A stretch of 64,000 nt of DNA from Pedobacter psychroterrae (lineage in GTDB: Bacteria; Bacteroidota; Bacteroidia; Sphingobacteriales; Sphingobacteriaceae): assembly GCF_004331695.1 (NCBI RefSeq), contig NZ_SJSL01000001.1, positions 1,488,001 to 1,552,000 on the forward strand. Direction: 5' to 3'. Shown here piece after piece: positions 23,244-49,251 of this stretch (positions are counted from its first letter, which is position 1; every line of letters starts with the position of its first letter). The translations under genes and the position numbers were made by a program. Under the pieces are notes generated by a model. The model was not told the origin of the DNA. It saw nothing but the letters and a program-made list of their open reading frames with translations, and made no database searches.

Positions 23244-23385
23244 GAACAAATTTCCCTCGTATTGTATATATCCCTGAGATATTTAGCTAATGTACTATAA
23301 TTATTAAAAGAATACATCATTACCTACGTAAATTCGTTTACATCAGATTTTGACCGCGCTTCGGATTTTATATTAAAAAAATGTT

Positions 23386-23393
23386 TATTTTTA
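23386..23393 (+). promoter_or_regulatory. accA promoter -7 element (TATTTTTA variant)
   Basis: TATTTTTA differs from TAnnTTTG in the last base; the same variant precedes the VF530 gene at 43104-43111. It ends 11 nt before the accA ATG at 23405. Confidence 0.45.
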
Positions 23394-23404
23394 CAGCCCC
23401 GCTT

Positions 23405-24370
23405 ATGGAACAGATAAAAACATCATTTGATTTTGAAAAGCCTTTAGCTGAACTTATTCAGCAGATTGAAAAGGTTAAACAGGTTGCCGATAAAACAAAA
23501 GTAGATATGTCTGCTACGCTCATAGAGTTGGAAGAAAAAGTGGCTCAGACCCGCGAAACGCTTTATTCCAACCTTACGGGATGGCAAAAAGTTCAGATGT
23601 CCCGTCATGCTGAAAGGCCACAGACTTTGGACTACATCAGTATGATCTGCGATGATTTTATTGAAATGCATGGCGACAGGACTGTAAAAGATGATAAGGC
23701 GATCATAGGCGGCTTTGCCACCATTAATGGGCAGTCGGTAATGATCATTGGTCATCAGAAAGGGAAAAACACGAAAGAGCGGCAATACCGTAATTTTGGC
23801 ATGGCCAATCCTGAAGGCTATAGAAAGGCACTTCGCCTGATGAGGCTAGCCGAGAAATTTAATAAACCAGTTATTTCTTTTATTGATACCATGGGTGCTT
23901 ATCCTGGCCTGGAAGCAGAAGAACGCGGACAGGGCGAGGCCATTGCCAGAAACTTGTTGGAAATGTCCATATTGAGGGTGCCTATTCTTTGTTTTGTAGT
24001 AGGTGAAGGTGCTTCAGGCGGTGCATTGGGGATAGGGATAGGAGATAAGGTCTACATGCTGGAGCATACCTGGTATTCGGTCATATCACCTGAGTCCTGT
24101 TCTTCTATTTTATGGAGAAGCTGGGACTATAAAGAAAGGGCAGCGGAATGCCTCAAACTGACTTCTGATGATATGTACAATAACAAACTGATAGACGGAA
24201 TCATTAAAGAACCTCTTGGCGGTGCACATCAGAATCCTGAAGAAATGGCCCAGACCATTAAAGAGCAGATCATAAAAGACCTCGAAATACTTAAAAAAGA
24301 AAAGACCGACAAAATGATCGCAACCAGAATTGATAAGTTTTGTGCGATGGGGGTTGTTCAAGAAGGTTAA
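23405..24370 (+). CDS. accA: acetyl-CoA carboxylase carboxyltransferase subunit alpha
   Basis: The protein has 321 residues from the ATG at 23405; an in-frame ATG at 23381 overlaps the promoter. With AccD it transfers carboxyl from biotin to acetyl-CoA, the first step of fatty acid synthesis. [54 protein letters not shown] and [12 protein letters not shown] are family hallmarks. It stands alone on this strand and ends 4 nt before the inverted-repeat element at 24375-24759. Confidence 0.98.
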
Positions 24371-24453
24371 ACTATTCTCCGGCTGCATAATTTGGCTCTG
24401 AAGAAGAGCCAAAAGCCGCTAGGCCGGTTCATAGAACACTCGTTTATAGTAGC

Positions 24454-24493
24454 AAAAAAGGCCTGCAATTTTTCGAAATTGCAGGCCTTTTTT
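24454..24493. terminator. perfect UUCG-loop hairpin terminator, bidirectional
   Basis: An 18-bp perfect stem (24454-24471 with 24476-24493, core GGCCTGCAATTT) is capped by a TTCG tetraloop. A-run and T-run flanks suit termination of accA from the left and the DUF2723 gene from the right. Confidence 0.9.
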
Positions 24494-24495
24494 TT

Positions 24496-24584
24496 AGTAA
24501 TATCTGTATTAACGCTATGTATTTTAATACTGGTAATGCTTTTTTTTTGAGTAAAATCTGTATTATCGCTATATATTTTAATAC
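24496..24584. repeat. 35-nt direct repeat pair inside the inverted-repeat element
   Basis: Positions 24496-24530 and 24550-24584 match at 32 of 35 bases (shared core ATCTGTATTA, then CGCTAT and TATTTTAATAC). The offset between copies is 54 nt. Confidence 0.85.
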
Positions 24585-24772
24585 CTGTATTCTTTATTGT
24601 CATTGAATCAATCACTTCTTTAACTGTAATTCTTCAATCCCTCCATGCTTATCCTTTCATTTAATCTCCTTCGCTTGTCCGTTACAAAAATCGAGTGTTC
24701 TGTGAACCGGCATAGCGTCTTTTGGCTCTTTTTCAGAGCCAAATTATGCAGCCGGAGAACAGAATGCGAGAT

Positions 24773-27700
24773 TTATTGTGGGCCAAAGTACTGAGCAAAC
24801 CTGCCTTCCATCGCAGTAAATTTCTGAGTCAGCTTTTCAGCCAGCTTATCCTGTTTGTTTACAGCAGCTGTCTTGGCCATTTGATTTAAGAATGACCATC
24901 CCATCTGCACATTCTGTGAACCAATCAGCTTATTTTTACTTTTAGACAGATCTGCCAGGTAGATCAGTTCTTTCTCGATATAATCAGCAGATTTCTCCAT
25001 CAGGGCATTTGCCCTGCTGATGTCCTTCAACTGATAAAGATTTTCTGCCATGAAGTAGGTTCCCATTGTAGAACGCAGTCCAAAAAATCTATTAGGCATC
25101 ACTTTAAAATAGCGGTCTGCCACCTTTTTAGCTTCTGCCGTCTTTCCTTCTTTAAGCAGGCCTGTGATTGCATTGTTGAAAATATTTGTAAAGATCGACA
25201 CATCATCTGCAGATTGTGTATCCAGATAGCGGGCATTTTTTACATTTCCCCATACAAACTTGTTCATCAGGTTGTCATACAATGCAGGAGTATTGATGAG
25301 GTCTTGCTTCTCGGTACCAGTGGTATCAAGTTTCAATGGCATTAAGCGCATAGCCAGACCTTCTGTATATAAATAGTTATCCAGCCCATTATATTGTTCT
25401 GATGGGACGGTACTTGCAAAATAAATAGGTCGCTCCCAGTTATTGTGCACCAGGATGTCAAACATTGCCAAAGTACCTTTAGTTACATAATTTTTATTAA
25501 ATGTCCATTCCAGCTCAGGAACAATTTTTGCCGAATCAGCAGTGGCAACAACCTTGTTTTTAATTACATCTGCCTTGTTTACGGTCAGCTTAAAATGTTT
25601 GGTCGGTATTATATTAACCTTTCTGCCATCCTGCATAGTAAGCTTGTCTTCATCGTCGTTGGAAAGCAGGATGCCAAGTATATTGCTCAGTTCAACAGAA
25701 CCAGCCACTTTATAATCCTGGTAATACATCACATCCCTTACGCCTTGTACATAATCTGCTTCTTTCATAGATAGCGGTAATGGTGCAGATTCGTTTTGCT
25801 TGCGCCTCATACCATCAATGTACCAGTCAGTATCAAATAAGCTTAAATTCACCAGGCGGATATCCGGCCTGATATTTTCCACTTCCTGAGCATACCACAG
25901 CGGATAGGTGTCATTATCACCATATGTAAACAAGATGGCATTAGGGGCGCAGGATTGAAGATAATCTATGGCGATATCACGTGCCACCCATTTAGTCGAC
26001 CTGTCATGATCGTCCCAGCCCTGTGCAGCCATAATAATGGGAGCAGCAAATAAGCCAATTACAGTGGCACCAATGGCGCCGTTTAAAGGGGTAATCTTCT
26101 TTGACAGCCAGTCGCGTATGGCCAATACCCCAATACCGATCCATATTGCAAATGCATAGAATGATCCGGCATATGCATAATCACGTTCTCTTGGTTCCAG
26201 CGGCTTTTGATTGAGGTACAACACAATCGCGATCCCGGTAAAGAAGAATAACAGCGCTACGATCCCTGCATCTTTCTGATTGCGTTTAAAGTGCCAGTAT
26301 GCACCGATCAGCCCAATAATCAGTGGTAAGAAAAAGAACCTGTTGTAGGCTTTATTTTCAGTGATCGACGGAGGAAGATGGGATTGGTCGCCAAGACGTA
26401 TGGCATCAATAGGTTTGATTCCACTTAACCACTGCCCGTCATATATACTTCCCTGACCTTGTTCGTCATTTTGACGGCCAACAAAATTCCACATAAAATA
26501 CCTCATGTACATTTGTCCGGTCTGGTAGCTAAAGAAAAATCCAATATTATCAAAAAGAGTAGGGAAGTGGTCGTCACTGAGCCCCATCATGTCTTTATAA
26601 TAGCTTACATGTCTTGCATCATCGCTATACATCCTTGGAAACGGTGTAGTTTTATCATACTCAGCTTCTGATTTTTTACCAGCCTCTTCATACTTGTCAG
26701 CACCTTTTCTGTAGATGGTTTTACCATCTTCATAGTTCACTACTTCTGAATTATAATTAGGACCAAATAGCAGCGGTCTGTCGCCATATTGCTCCCTGTT
26801 TAAATAACCCAGAAAAGAAAATGCATTGTCCGGGTTACTATTGTTCAGGTTGGGGCTTGCCTTGGCACGGATGATGATCATGGCAAAAGAAGCATAACCG
26901 AAAATGATCAGTACGGTTGATAATAAAGCAAGATTAAGTATCTTTTTCTGATGCTTGATAGAATATCTGATACCCCATACCAAGCCACCAATCAATAAAA
27001 TAGCGAAGAATATTACACCAGTTCCGAAGCCCATACCTAGCGTATTGACAAAGAATAAGTCAAAATATGCCCCTAATGATACGATATACTGTATGATGCC
27101 GTATTGTATGACCGCTAGAATAAGCACGCCTATCACACCCGTTTTTACGACACCGGAAGTGGTAGCGTCCTTTGTTTTTCTGAAATAGTAAACAAATGCA
27201 ATTGCAGGTATGGTTAATAAGTTTAGCAAGTGGATACCGATAGATAAACCCATAATGTAGGCGATAAAGAGTAACCATCTGTCGGCCCGTGGATCATCTG
27301 CTACGGCTTCCCATTTTAATATGGCCCAGAAAACGATCGCTGTAAATAACGAAGACAATGCATAAACTTCAGATTCAACCGCTGAAAACCAGAAGCTATC
27401 TGAAAATGTATAGGCCAGTGCACCAACAATACCTGCCCCTATGATGGAAACTAAGTTTGCTTTGCTAAGCTCTTCTCCTTCTTTGAGCAGTACTTTTTTT
27501 GCGAGCGCAGTAATGGTCCAAAACAAAAATAATATCGTAGCACCACTTGCCACAGCCGAGCCAACGTTCATAAAGTAGGCCACTTTGCTAAGGTCTCCCA
27601 ATGCAAAAAGAGAAAAGAAATGTTGTATCATTAAAAACAAGGGAGCACCTGGTTGGTGTACTACCTGCATTTTAAGTGCTGAGGCAATAAATTCACCGCA

Positions 27701-27802
27701 GTCCCAAAAACTAACTGAGGGTTCAAGTGTTAAGATATAGGTTAATGTAGCAATTGCAAAACAAAACCAACCGGCGATGTTATTGATTTTTAAATAATTC
27801 AT
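24773..27802 (-). CDS. DUF2723 multi-spanning membrane protein, GT-C glycosyltransferase-like
   Basis: The protein has 1009 residues. The N-terminal DUF2723 region has EPSVSFWDCGEF (Asp34, Glu37), resembling the acidic catalytic loop of GT-C protein O-mannosyltransferases. About 11-13 hydrophobic helices lie within residues 10-330 and 490-600. A long soluble C-terminal part (about 610-1009) includes FTYGDNDTYPLWY and helical TPR-like repeats near 880-1000. It probably transfers a lipid-linked sugar to exported proteins or glycans at the inner membrane. The exact reaction is unproven. It is a single-gene unit on the minus strand. Confidence 0.85.
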   Translation of the reverse strand: MNYLKINNIAGWFCFAIATLTYILTLEPSVSFWDCGEFIASALKMQVVHQPGAPLFLMIQHFFSLFALGDLSKVAYFMNVGSAVASGATILFLFWTITALAKKVLLKEGEELSKANLVSIIGAGIVGALAYTFSDSFWFSAVESEVYALSSLFTAIVFWAILKWEAVADDPRADRWLLFIAYIMGLSIGIHLLNLLTIPAIAFVYYFRKTKDATTSGVVKTGVIGVLILAVIQYGIIQYIVSLGAYFDLFFVNTLGMGFGTGVIFFAILLIGGLVWGIRYSIKHQKKILNLALLSTVLIIFGYASFAMIIIRAKASPNLNNSNPDNAFSFLGYLNREQYGDRPLLFGPNYNSEVVNYEDGKTIYRKGADKYEEAGKKSEAEYDKTTPFPRMYSDDARHVSYYKDMMGLSDDHFPTLFDNIGFFFSYQTGQMYMRYFMWNFVGRQNDEQGQGSIYDGQWLSGIKPIDAIRLGDQSHLPPSITENKAYNRFFFLPLIIGLIGAYWHFKRNQKDAGIVALLFFFTGIAIVLYLNQKPLEPRERDYAYAGSFYAFAIWIGIGVLAIRDWLSKKITPLNGAIGATVIGLFAAPIIMAAQGWDDHDRSTKWVARDIAIDYLQSCAPNAILFTYGDNDTYPLWYAQEVENIRPDIRLVNLSLFDTDWYIDGMRRKQNESAPLPLSMKEADYVQGVRDVMYYQDYKVAGSVELSNILGILLSNDDEDKLTMQDGRKVNIIPTKHFKLTVNKADVIKNKVVATADSAKIVPELEWTFNKNYVTKGTLAMFDILVHNNWERPIYFASTVPSEQYNGLDNYLYTEGLAMRLMPLKLDTTGTEKQDLINTPALYDNLMNKFVWGNVKNARYLDTQSADDVSIFTNIFNNAITGLLKEGKTAEAKKVADRYFKVMPNRFFGLRSTMGTYFMAENLYQLKDISRANALMEKSADYIEKELIYLADLSKSKNKLIGSQNVQMGWSFLNQMAKTAAVNKQDKLAEKLTQKFTAMEGRFAQYFGPQ

Positions 27803-47343: not shown

Positions 47344-49251
47344 ATGAGAAAAGTTTTATTAAGTGTAATGACGGTGGGCTTTTTGCTAGCTTTTAATGCA
47401 TGTAAAAAAGGAGACCAAGGTCCAATAGGTCCTTCGGGTCCGACGGGTGCCGCTGGTGCTGCTGGCCAAGTAGGTCCTGCAGGTGCAGCTGGTGCTGACG
47501 GTTCAAAAATTTTAACTGGTGCTGGCGCTCCTGCTGCCGCTACTGGTGCAAACGGTGATTTTTATTTTGATAGTACTGCGAAATCTTTGTATGGTCCTAA
47601 AGCCGGTGGTGCTTGGCCTGCAACAGGTGTAGTACTTTCTGGTCCTGCTGGTGCTGCTGGTGCAAATGGTGCTACAGGTGCAACTGGAGCTACTGGAACT
47701 AACGGTTCAACTGGTGCAGCTGGAACTAAATTCCTTGCTGGTGCAGGTGCTCCAGGTGCTGCAATTGGTAGTGAAGGTGATTTCTATTTTGACACTACTA
47801 ATTCAGTATTTTATGGTCCTAAAGGAACAGGTGCTACTCCATGGGCTGCTTCTGCAGGTTCTAACGTAATGCCTATTGGTCGTGCTTATGCTGCTAAAAC
47901 TTTCTATTTAACTAGAGGTTTTGAAGGTGTAACAGAAGTAACTAAAACTTATGGTCAGGTAGCTAATGTGTCTTATGGTATGTTTGACATCATCACTACT
48001 TACACTATTAATTCTGATGATGAAGTTCGTATTGCTAACTATCCAGGTTGGTCAGATAACAGAGAGATGGCTTTTGAAAATACTGCTGGTTCAGGCGTGT
48101 TCGATAAAGTTCCTACTTCTGGAAATCAATTAAATCCTGCTAGTGGTGCTTTTGATGCTGATTTTAGCGTAGGTAGAAGGTTTATTTACACAAATAACAC
48201 CGCTAACCCAACAACTACTTTTGCATTAACTCAAATTGATATTGACAGGTTAACTGCTAATAATGGTGCTGCTTTTGGTTACTTAACTTATGCTAAAGTA
48301 ACTACTTCTCCATCGAACCCAGGTAATAGCTATATGCCGGCTAACCCTAGCTTGTTAACTCCAGGTGGTACTATGAACTTTGCTAGAACTAAAAATGTAG
48401 CGGTTACTAGTGAGTCAGGTGCAAGTGCTAACTACAATGCAACTTATACTGCTCAAACTAGACTTAACATCAATACGATTCCAGGTTTAGGTGCTAACAT
48501 TGAGAAATACAAGCAAGAAGGTAAAGTATTTGTAAAATACAAATATTTCACTAGCAATACTGCAGGTAACAATCCTGAGAATCACGCAGGAACTAACGCA
48601 GGTTGGGTTGACATCACTCCATATGCTAATTCTTATGTGAAAGCTGTTTCTTACGGTGTAGATAATTCTGATACTAACCCTACATTGTTCCCAGGTCCAT
48701 TTAATGCTCCTGCTTATACAAGTGGTATGGGTAATCCATTTGCAGGTGGTCCAAACTTTATGGGTACTGCTAACATCTTTGGTAATGCAGGTACGACTGT
48801 TACTTTGGCAACTAATCAAACTGCTGCTGCTGTAACTACTGCAAGTACTGTATACAATGATGGTGAGGTTGTAATCAACTGGAACATCAATAGCGGTACA
48901 AACTTTGGTAACGCTACAACTACTTACTCTTTTGGTCCTACAACTATTCCAAGTGTAACTGTAGTTGGTAACACAGGTACAAGAGCTCCAGCTGTTGCTC
49001 GTGGTTTTGAAGATGACTTCTATTCAGGAGCTCAGTTAACTTCTACTCCTGCTGGTCAGCTTGATGCTAATGGAGATGCTCAACTTGTTTTGAGAACCGG
49101 TGGTCGTCCAGCATCTTACTTCTCTGGAACTAAATTAGTTCAAGTACAAGTATTTGTTATCCCTGGAGATGTTATTAAAACGGCTAAAGCAAAAGGTGTT
49201 GATGTAAACAACGCTGCTGAGCTTGGTAAATACATCTCATTAAATAAATAA
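47344..49251 (+). CDS. collagen-like repeat lipoprotein, probably surface-exposed
   Basis: The protein has 635 residues. The lipobox puts the lipid on Cys20 (FNACKK). Residues 23-55 are eleven Gly-X-Y triplets and 100-129 are ten more. After each block comes a similar module of about 40 residues (ILTGAGAP, GDFYFDST, LYGPK; then FLAGAGAP, GDFYFDTT, FYGPK). Residues about 175-635 form a long Thr/Asn/Gly-rich region with no recognised domain, perhaps a beta fold. Codons are strongly biased to GCT, GGT and ACT, suggesting very high expression. It has its own promoter and terminator. Function unknown. Confidence 0.8.
   Translation: MRKVLLSVMTVGFLLAFNACKKGDQGPIGPSGPTGAAGAAGQVGPAGAAGADGSKILTGAGAPAAATGANGDFYFDSTAKSLYGPKAGGAWPATGVVLSGPAGAAGANGATGATGATGTNGSTGAAGTKFLAGAGAPGAAIGSEGDFYFDTTNSVFYGPKGTGATPWAASAGSNVMPIGRAYAAKTFYLTRGFEGVTEVTKTYGQVANVSYGMFDIITTYTINSDDEVRIANYPGWSDNREMAFENTAGSGVFDKVPTSGNQLNPASGAFDADFSVGRRFIYTNNTANPTTTFALTQIDIDRLTANNGAAFGYLTYAKVTTSPSNPGNSYMPANPSLLTPGGTMNFARTKNVAVTSESGASANYNATYTAQTRLNINTIPGLGANIEKYKQEGKVFVKYKYFTSNTAGNNPENHAGTNAGWVDITPYANSYVKAVSYGVDNSDTNPTLFPGPFNAPAYTSGMGNPFAGGPNFMGTANIFGNAGTTVTLATNQTAAAVTTASTVYNDGEVVINWNINSGTNFGNATTTYSFGPTTIPSVTVVGNTGTRAPAVARGFEDDFYSGAQLTSTPAGQLDANGDAQLVLRTGGRPASYFSGTKLVQVQVFVIPGDVIKTAKAKGVDVNNAAELGKYISLNK

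Follow-up and report, generated by a model that had tools for sequence, protein, structure and literature searches.

Between accA and a gene that converges on it, the genome of Pedobacter psychroterrae carries a 385-bp noncoding stretch that is nearly palindromic, which raises the question of what kind of element this is and why it should sit exactly between two gene ends. The stretch lies in the window studied here, by which we mean the whole 64,000 nt of DNA analysed. Direct comparison of positions 24375–24442 with the reverse complement of 24692–24759 gave 4 mismatches in 68 nt, exactly as the preliminary description had reported, and a repeat finder stretched the arms to 24372–24460 and 24674–24762 (89 nt, 87% complementary). 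With up to 3 mismatches allowed, a 25-nt probe from the arm ends matched only the two arms within the window and had 0 matches across 100 dinucleotide-preserving shuffles. The 395-base region folded with z = -20.4 on the plus strand and -13.9 on the minus strand, 0 of 100 shuffles being as good, and folds of the arm sequences bore out the earlier remark that each arm folds on itself. As accA ends at 24370 and the stop codon of the convergent gene ends at 24773, the gaps of 4 and 13 nt given previously agree with the ORF coordinates. The convergent gene, labelled DUF2723 earlier, matches Pfam PF11028, which bears the name TMEM260-like. The features of the locus are as follows.

23381–24370, plus strand: accA, acetyl-CoA carboxylase carboxyltransferase subunit alpha, upstream of copy A (ORF; Pfam PF03255, E 4.8e-147)
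24365–24443, plus strand: hairpin repeat copy A, sense to accA and overlapping the accA stop codon (model R1, 86.7 bits, whole-genome E 1.2e-22; fold)
24454–24493, no strand assigned: 18-bp hairpin without mismatches, bearing A and T runs and interpreted as an ordinary two-way terminator (inverted repeat; similar short hairpins at this junction in repeat-free relatives)
24488–24595, no strand assigned: 54-nt tandem duplication (83%) in the inter-arm spacer (repeat finder)
24691–24769, minus strand: hairpin repeat copy B, sense to the convergent TMEM260-like gene (model R1, 102 bits, whole-genome E 1.8e-27; fold)
24773–27802, minus strand: convergent TMEM260-like gene (earlier DUF2723), upstream of copy B (ORF; Pfam PF11028)

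Copies A and B were both in the seed alignment of model R1. The 5ʹ side of the outermost stem of copy A looks eroded. The 18-bp spacer hairpin looks like an ordinary two-way terminator; a terminator scan called 0 sites in the palindrome region, this hairpin included. Elsewhere in the window, at 47446–47744, overlapping GGTGCTGCT-type repeats resemble a putative collagen-like Gly-X-Y coding stretch.

The 385-bp palindrome had been taken as the element, which is not what the searches returned: the repeating unit is one arm together with its outer stem (model matches 24365–24443 and 24691–24769). We read the palindrome as two independent copies of a dispersed hairpin repeat of the Pedobacter clade, one at the 3ʹ end of each convergent gene, around a plain terminator hairpin; taken jointly with the two-way role at gene ends and the rewriting of copies proposed below, this reading has in our judgement about an even chance of being correct. 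The unit is an imperfect hairpin of ~77 nt plus outer A/T runs, and its model-matched length is 64–123 nt with a median of 77. When the 395 bases were used for a DNA search, the own genome held one further convincing partial copy (C1:518541-518613, 78%), and 12 of 99 genomes matched (one genome per species was compared throughout). In six of these 12 (G010, G017, G025, G042, G051, and G056) only the spacer matched, in four of them at its terminator hairpin, while arm-like copies were found in G000, G002, G012, G018, G026, and G032. Covariance model R1, built from 11 arm-like copies in a MAFFT alignment, detected 23 copies in the own genome with a limit of E ≤ 1 and 20 with E ≤ 0.01, the window accounting for just two, so the check proposed earlier for arm copies elsewhere in this and other Pedobacter genomes came out positive. 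Over 59 genomes, 14 of 36 from the same genus carried copies, a single copy in three of the 14, and none was found in the 23 genomes of other families. With a wider covariance model, copies appeared in 7 of 251 genomes of the family, all within one of 25 genera; both scans used stricter Infernal filters, the second scoring 18 candidates per genome, and the models were built from members that they afterwards find. A strict pattern over named genomes matched 15 stretches, 14 from Pedobacter and one on a short contig of a Saccharibacteria bin; this 4-kb contig (L145, DBCV01000041.1) is perhaps a misplaced Pedobacter contig.

For the analyses below, 193 model matches were reduced to 188 after removal of overlaps and to 186 after removal of duplicates, in 14 genomes; the loci had been chosen for fetching with clustered and high-scoring ones favoured. 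Some loci held local arrays. Three hairpin copies stand in tandem at a spacing of 98 nt in L087 (G032:C16:22265-22538) and three at 152 nt in L244 (G035, 1096-1476), and in L088 (G018:C7, approximately 158945-159308) an array of short repeats of ~13–14 nt lies between two direct hairpin copies.

The position of the copies relative to genes was strongly biased. Genes were called as longest ORFs by a simple script. In a search of up to 150 nt for the nearest stop codon facing each copy, 141 of the 186 copies had it on the sense side and 17 on the antisense side, and 28 had none; the 141 of 158 in sense give a binomial p of 2e-25, uncorrected for shared ancestry. Sense copies lay a median of 11 nt past the stop codon, 125 of the 141 within 40 nt. 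For 133 copies a sense gene lay no more than 60 nt away and the neighbouring gene was visible; 91 of them faced a convergent gene, 48 of these with a partner copy, and 42 a codirectional one. Among the remaining 155 gene ends of these loci, which serve as background and include operon-internal ones, 34 were convergent. Inverted pairs are therefore mostly one copy per convergent gene, and the giant palindrome arises because convergent genes often carry one copy each. The upstream genes span enzymes, transporters, translation and replication factors, and others. A regulon reading was rejected, as no common functional theme emerged from the Pfam assignments, which covered 25 of 26 upstream genes in the own genome and 15 in other genomes.

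Read from sequences and folds, the hairpin consists in order of an outer stem between an A run and a T run, a bulge, a stem of 5–6 bp, a 3x3 pyrimidine loop, a stem of 4–6 bp, an asymmetric U/UAK loop, a short stem (GCAUU/AACGC or GGAA/UUCC), and an apical stem-loop; individual copies deviate from this layout. In the first alignment (11 sequences, MAFFT), 23 cells changed on both sides compared with 7.4 in shuffles. Alignment A3, with 92 distinct rows, had 341 two-sided changed cells against a shuffle mean of 88, and 11 one-sided ones; 89% of its cells were paired compared with 38.6–53.2% when slid, in an alignment that was fitted to the structure. The hairpin is thus conserved and its stems covary. 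In 152 of 185 copies the hairpin has an A run before it and a T run after it, each of 4 or more.

These runs bring the repeat close to ordinary intrinsic (Rho-independent) two-way terminators, with which it shares the order of A run, hairpin and T run just past the stop codon. In 161 of 185 copies, window copy A not among them, the stable hairpin leads into a T run of 4 or more. The repeat differs from such terminators in being longer, in having conserved internal loops and a sequence common between loci, and in that some copies (the accA type) lack a good T run and stand beside a separate terminator-like hairpin. Against a two-way terminator role count the 24 of 185 copies with a T run below 4 and the 23 of 185 with neither run; the conserved internal loops, which a terminator does not need, also count against it and point to another constraint, and the 17 antisense and 28 unplaced copies either misfit or were missed by the simple ORF caller.

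Internal loops that are conserved and strong covariation, together with the mostly sense placement past stop codons, would suit an element of the sense-strand 3ʹ untranslated RNA whose loops are read by a protein, for instance in mRNA stabilisation. Selection on the sense RNA would be expected to leave more G-U pairs than A-C mismatches, and the repeats show the reverse. In 15 stem columns that were more than 85% paired, G-U was counted 23 times and A-C 59 times, and in the strictly inner columns 13 and 21 times, with A-C ahead in 9 of the 14 genomes, behind in 3, and tied in 2. As a control, terminators were taken from the same 130 model-scanned loci with all repeat matches masked, their direction being judged by the T run and not by genes: 31 one-way terminators gave 350 Watson–Crick pairs, 18 G-U and 5 A-C, and 36 two-way terminators gave 435, 11 and 6, respectively. 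By Fisher tests, whose p values are rough because the copies are related, the repeats differed from one-way terminators (p 2e-5 over all columns and 0.003 over the inner ones) and from two-way terminators over all columns (p 0.01), whereas the contrast of the inner columns with two-way terminators was not significant (p 0.14). Folding without an alignment made the antisense strand the more stable in 148 of 185 copies, probably in part through pyrimidine loops turning into purine loops. What matters thus seems to be both strands or the DNA itself, and the case for the sense RNA as the selected molecule is weakened by the G-U and A-C counts. The carriers are, moreover, functionally unrelated genes. 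A known RNA family was rejected: Rfam gave 17 hits on the window stretch under permissive thresholds, all below the gathering score, and over 17 loci the only hit above it was a tRNA in L043, outside the repeat. We consider a sense-strand RNA element rather improbable.

Among known repeats, the closest are the REP, BIME, and REPIN sequences associated with RAYT transposases, which according to PMC3733652 comprise GTAG and CGTC families. They are imperfect palindromes in dispersed positions, found chiefly downstream of genes, where the neighbouring genes are unidirectional or convergent, often in inverted pairs and of species-specific types. The Pedobacter repeat likewise is a palindromic repeat in many intergenic copies (20 in the own genome, 186 in 14 genomes). 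It differs in its median length of 77 nt, compared with 20–40 bp for REP, and also in standing mostly in one orientation relative to the gene, in its conserved internal loops, and in lacking a GTAG or CGTC tag, GTAG lying near either end in 21 of 185 copies and CGTC in 4. In a search of 59 genomes, Y1_Tnp (PF01797; RAYT/IS200) had 0 matches in 11 of the 14 carriers, the own genome included, and one match in each of the remaining three, and RAYT/REP mobilisation was rejected on these grounds. Of the 22 non-carriers of the same genus, 19 had at least one match (Fisher p 2e-4 against carriers, confounded by ancestry). The repeat is best read as REP/BIME-like and outside the known REP classes.

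Mobility could have another source: a REP- or MITE-like hairpin of single-stranded DNA, copied by some nuclease or transposase that prefers gene ends, with termination as a by-product. The dispersed copies with their lineage-specific subfamilies, the tandem triplets at 98 bp in G032 and 152 bp in G035, the scarcity of G-U pairs with the more stable antisense strand, and the relatives whose corresponding gene end lacks the repeat would all fit such a hairpin. What speaks against it, besides the distribution of Y1_Tnp, is that many positions are common to several species, that target duplications and exact junctions were not seen, and that a strict pattern had 0 matches in viral contigs; a phage origin was rejected on that last result, with a pattern that also misses many real copies. 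Empty sites, which had been named earlier as a sign of a MITE-like repeat, do exist at the level of genes, 27 of 30 accA loci having no model match. No transposase, target duplication or exact empty-site junction was identified for the repeat; its ends are A/T runs, and the relatives looked too diverged for exact junctions. A mobile hairpin is to our mind possible and on balance unlikely.

Integron attC sites also are imperfect hairpins with bulges after reading frames, and carry the core boxes RYYYAAC and GTTRRRY at their two ends. An attC-like recombination site would thus match the placement past stop codons and the bulged fold. The Pedobacter repeat differs in having no visible cassettes, in its identified carrier genes, which are mostly dispersed chromosomal genes, and in the boxes: RYYYAAC occurred near the left end in 0 and GTTRRRY near the right end in 1 of 185 copies. 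The integron integrase model TIGR02249 had 0 matches above its cut-off in 59 genomes and sub-threshold matches in all 59, most likely Xer-type recombinases. On the missing integrase and boxes the attC reading was rejected, and we find it scarcely credible. Inverted pairs of uptake sequences (DUS/USS) reportedly double as terminators, and share with our repeat that a sequence repeated genome-wide does so; the uptake motif is short and exact, whereas the Pedobacter repeat is a structured unit of ~80 nt. A passage of PMC2267715 touches on uptake-sequence terminators.

The history of the copies separates position from sequence. Copies stood after homologous upstream genes in different species in 87 pairs from 35 gene groups, orthologs being BLASTP pairs with at least 66% amino-acid identity, not reciprocal best hits. 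The recent insertion considered in the preliminary description does not agree with the accA locus, where copies follow both accA and the TMEM260-like gene in G000, G258, G012, and G026, and where G002 has kept the accA copy beside a deleted-looking remnant of the other. We read 30 accA loci of the 60 genomes with accA and found a model match in three (G000, G012, and G026) and none in 27, most of which by eye had one or two short terminator hairpins; G018 had a long different hairpin, in L113, L134, and L136 additional sequence or genes intervened, and no convergent partner was visible in L117 and L121. Past the elongation-factor-like GTPase gene of L033, a copy lay just beyond the stop codon in seven clear loci and one weak locus of 30 read from 57 genomes with that gene, three copies being in tandem in G035. 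In relatives that lack the repeat, a plain terminator often occupies the gene end in question. Long near-perfect terminator-like hairpins with no model match were seen in L127 (G018, past accA) and L249 (G024, past the L033-type GTPase gene), possibly as ancestral or eroded forms. A single-gene tree of 31 accA sequences, with weak deep support, did not distinguish gain from loss at accA; its G002 sequence was excised manually, the gene being split at that locus. There (G002:C32:227842-228818) accA falls into two matches and L014 over the region shows some N bases, for which an assembly flaw or masking is likely.

The sequences themselves follow the genome. Mean identity was 0.73 between ortholog copies and 0.67 between non-orthologs, compared with 0.80 for the best copy within a genome, and 106 of 186 copies had a nearest relative from the same genome (shuffled mean 21, maximum 38 in 1000 shuffles). 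Positions are common to several species, yet sequences are homogenised within genomes, with which the idea of a palindrome maintained by recombination accords. At the accA locus, the accA-side copy of G026 had an identity of 0.84 to the opposite arm of G012 and 0.77 to its own side, one arm's apical sequence in G026 being similar to the apex of the opposing G012 arm. Within G000 the two arms have the same apical sequence save for single changes, and so do the two arms of G258. Two junctions of the own genome 3.2 kb apart have a common spacer in inverted orientation (score 63 versus 25 forward, maximum 35 in 300 shuffles). These likenesses and the inverted spacer are compatible with hairpins undergoing exchange with one another, inversion, or template switching. 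Among 595 spacer pairs compared, this case, which had prompted the search, was the one clear homology; the whole pair as a mobile unit was rejected, and the single hairpin is therefore the usual unit.

For the two-copy reading, we suggest that most copies would act as two-way gene-end hairpins, ending or blocking transcription from both sides, the A run before and the T run after the hairpin allowing action in both directions. Because the window copies have weak or absent T runs, they may more likely be barriers, or leftovers, beside the 18-bp hairpin as the likelier terminator. Copies would be rewritten from each other by recombination or replication template switching, which would alter the two sides of a stem together and leave pairing intact; template switching is proposed as a route to perfect stems in PMC8794818. 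An unlikely but distinct variant, tentatively put forward, is a new class of gene-end repeat kept by copying at the DNA level, with positions long inherited, sequences rewritten by a hairpin-specific machinery other than Y1 or by template switching, and possibly the bottom DNA strand as the folded one.

Under the two-copy reading, the Pedobacter repeat probably marks and insulates gene ends. We found no account of such a repeat in the openly licensed literature, where this family in a soil genus is apparently undescribed. It separates the inheritance of position from the copying of sequence, which are usually confounded in palindromic repeats. Standing at the same gene ends in several species, sometimes with unlike stems, it gives a testable natural case of concerted hairpin evolution without RAYT, and it also offers a natural case of gene-end insulation between convergent genes.
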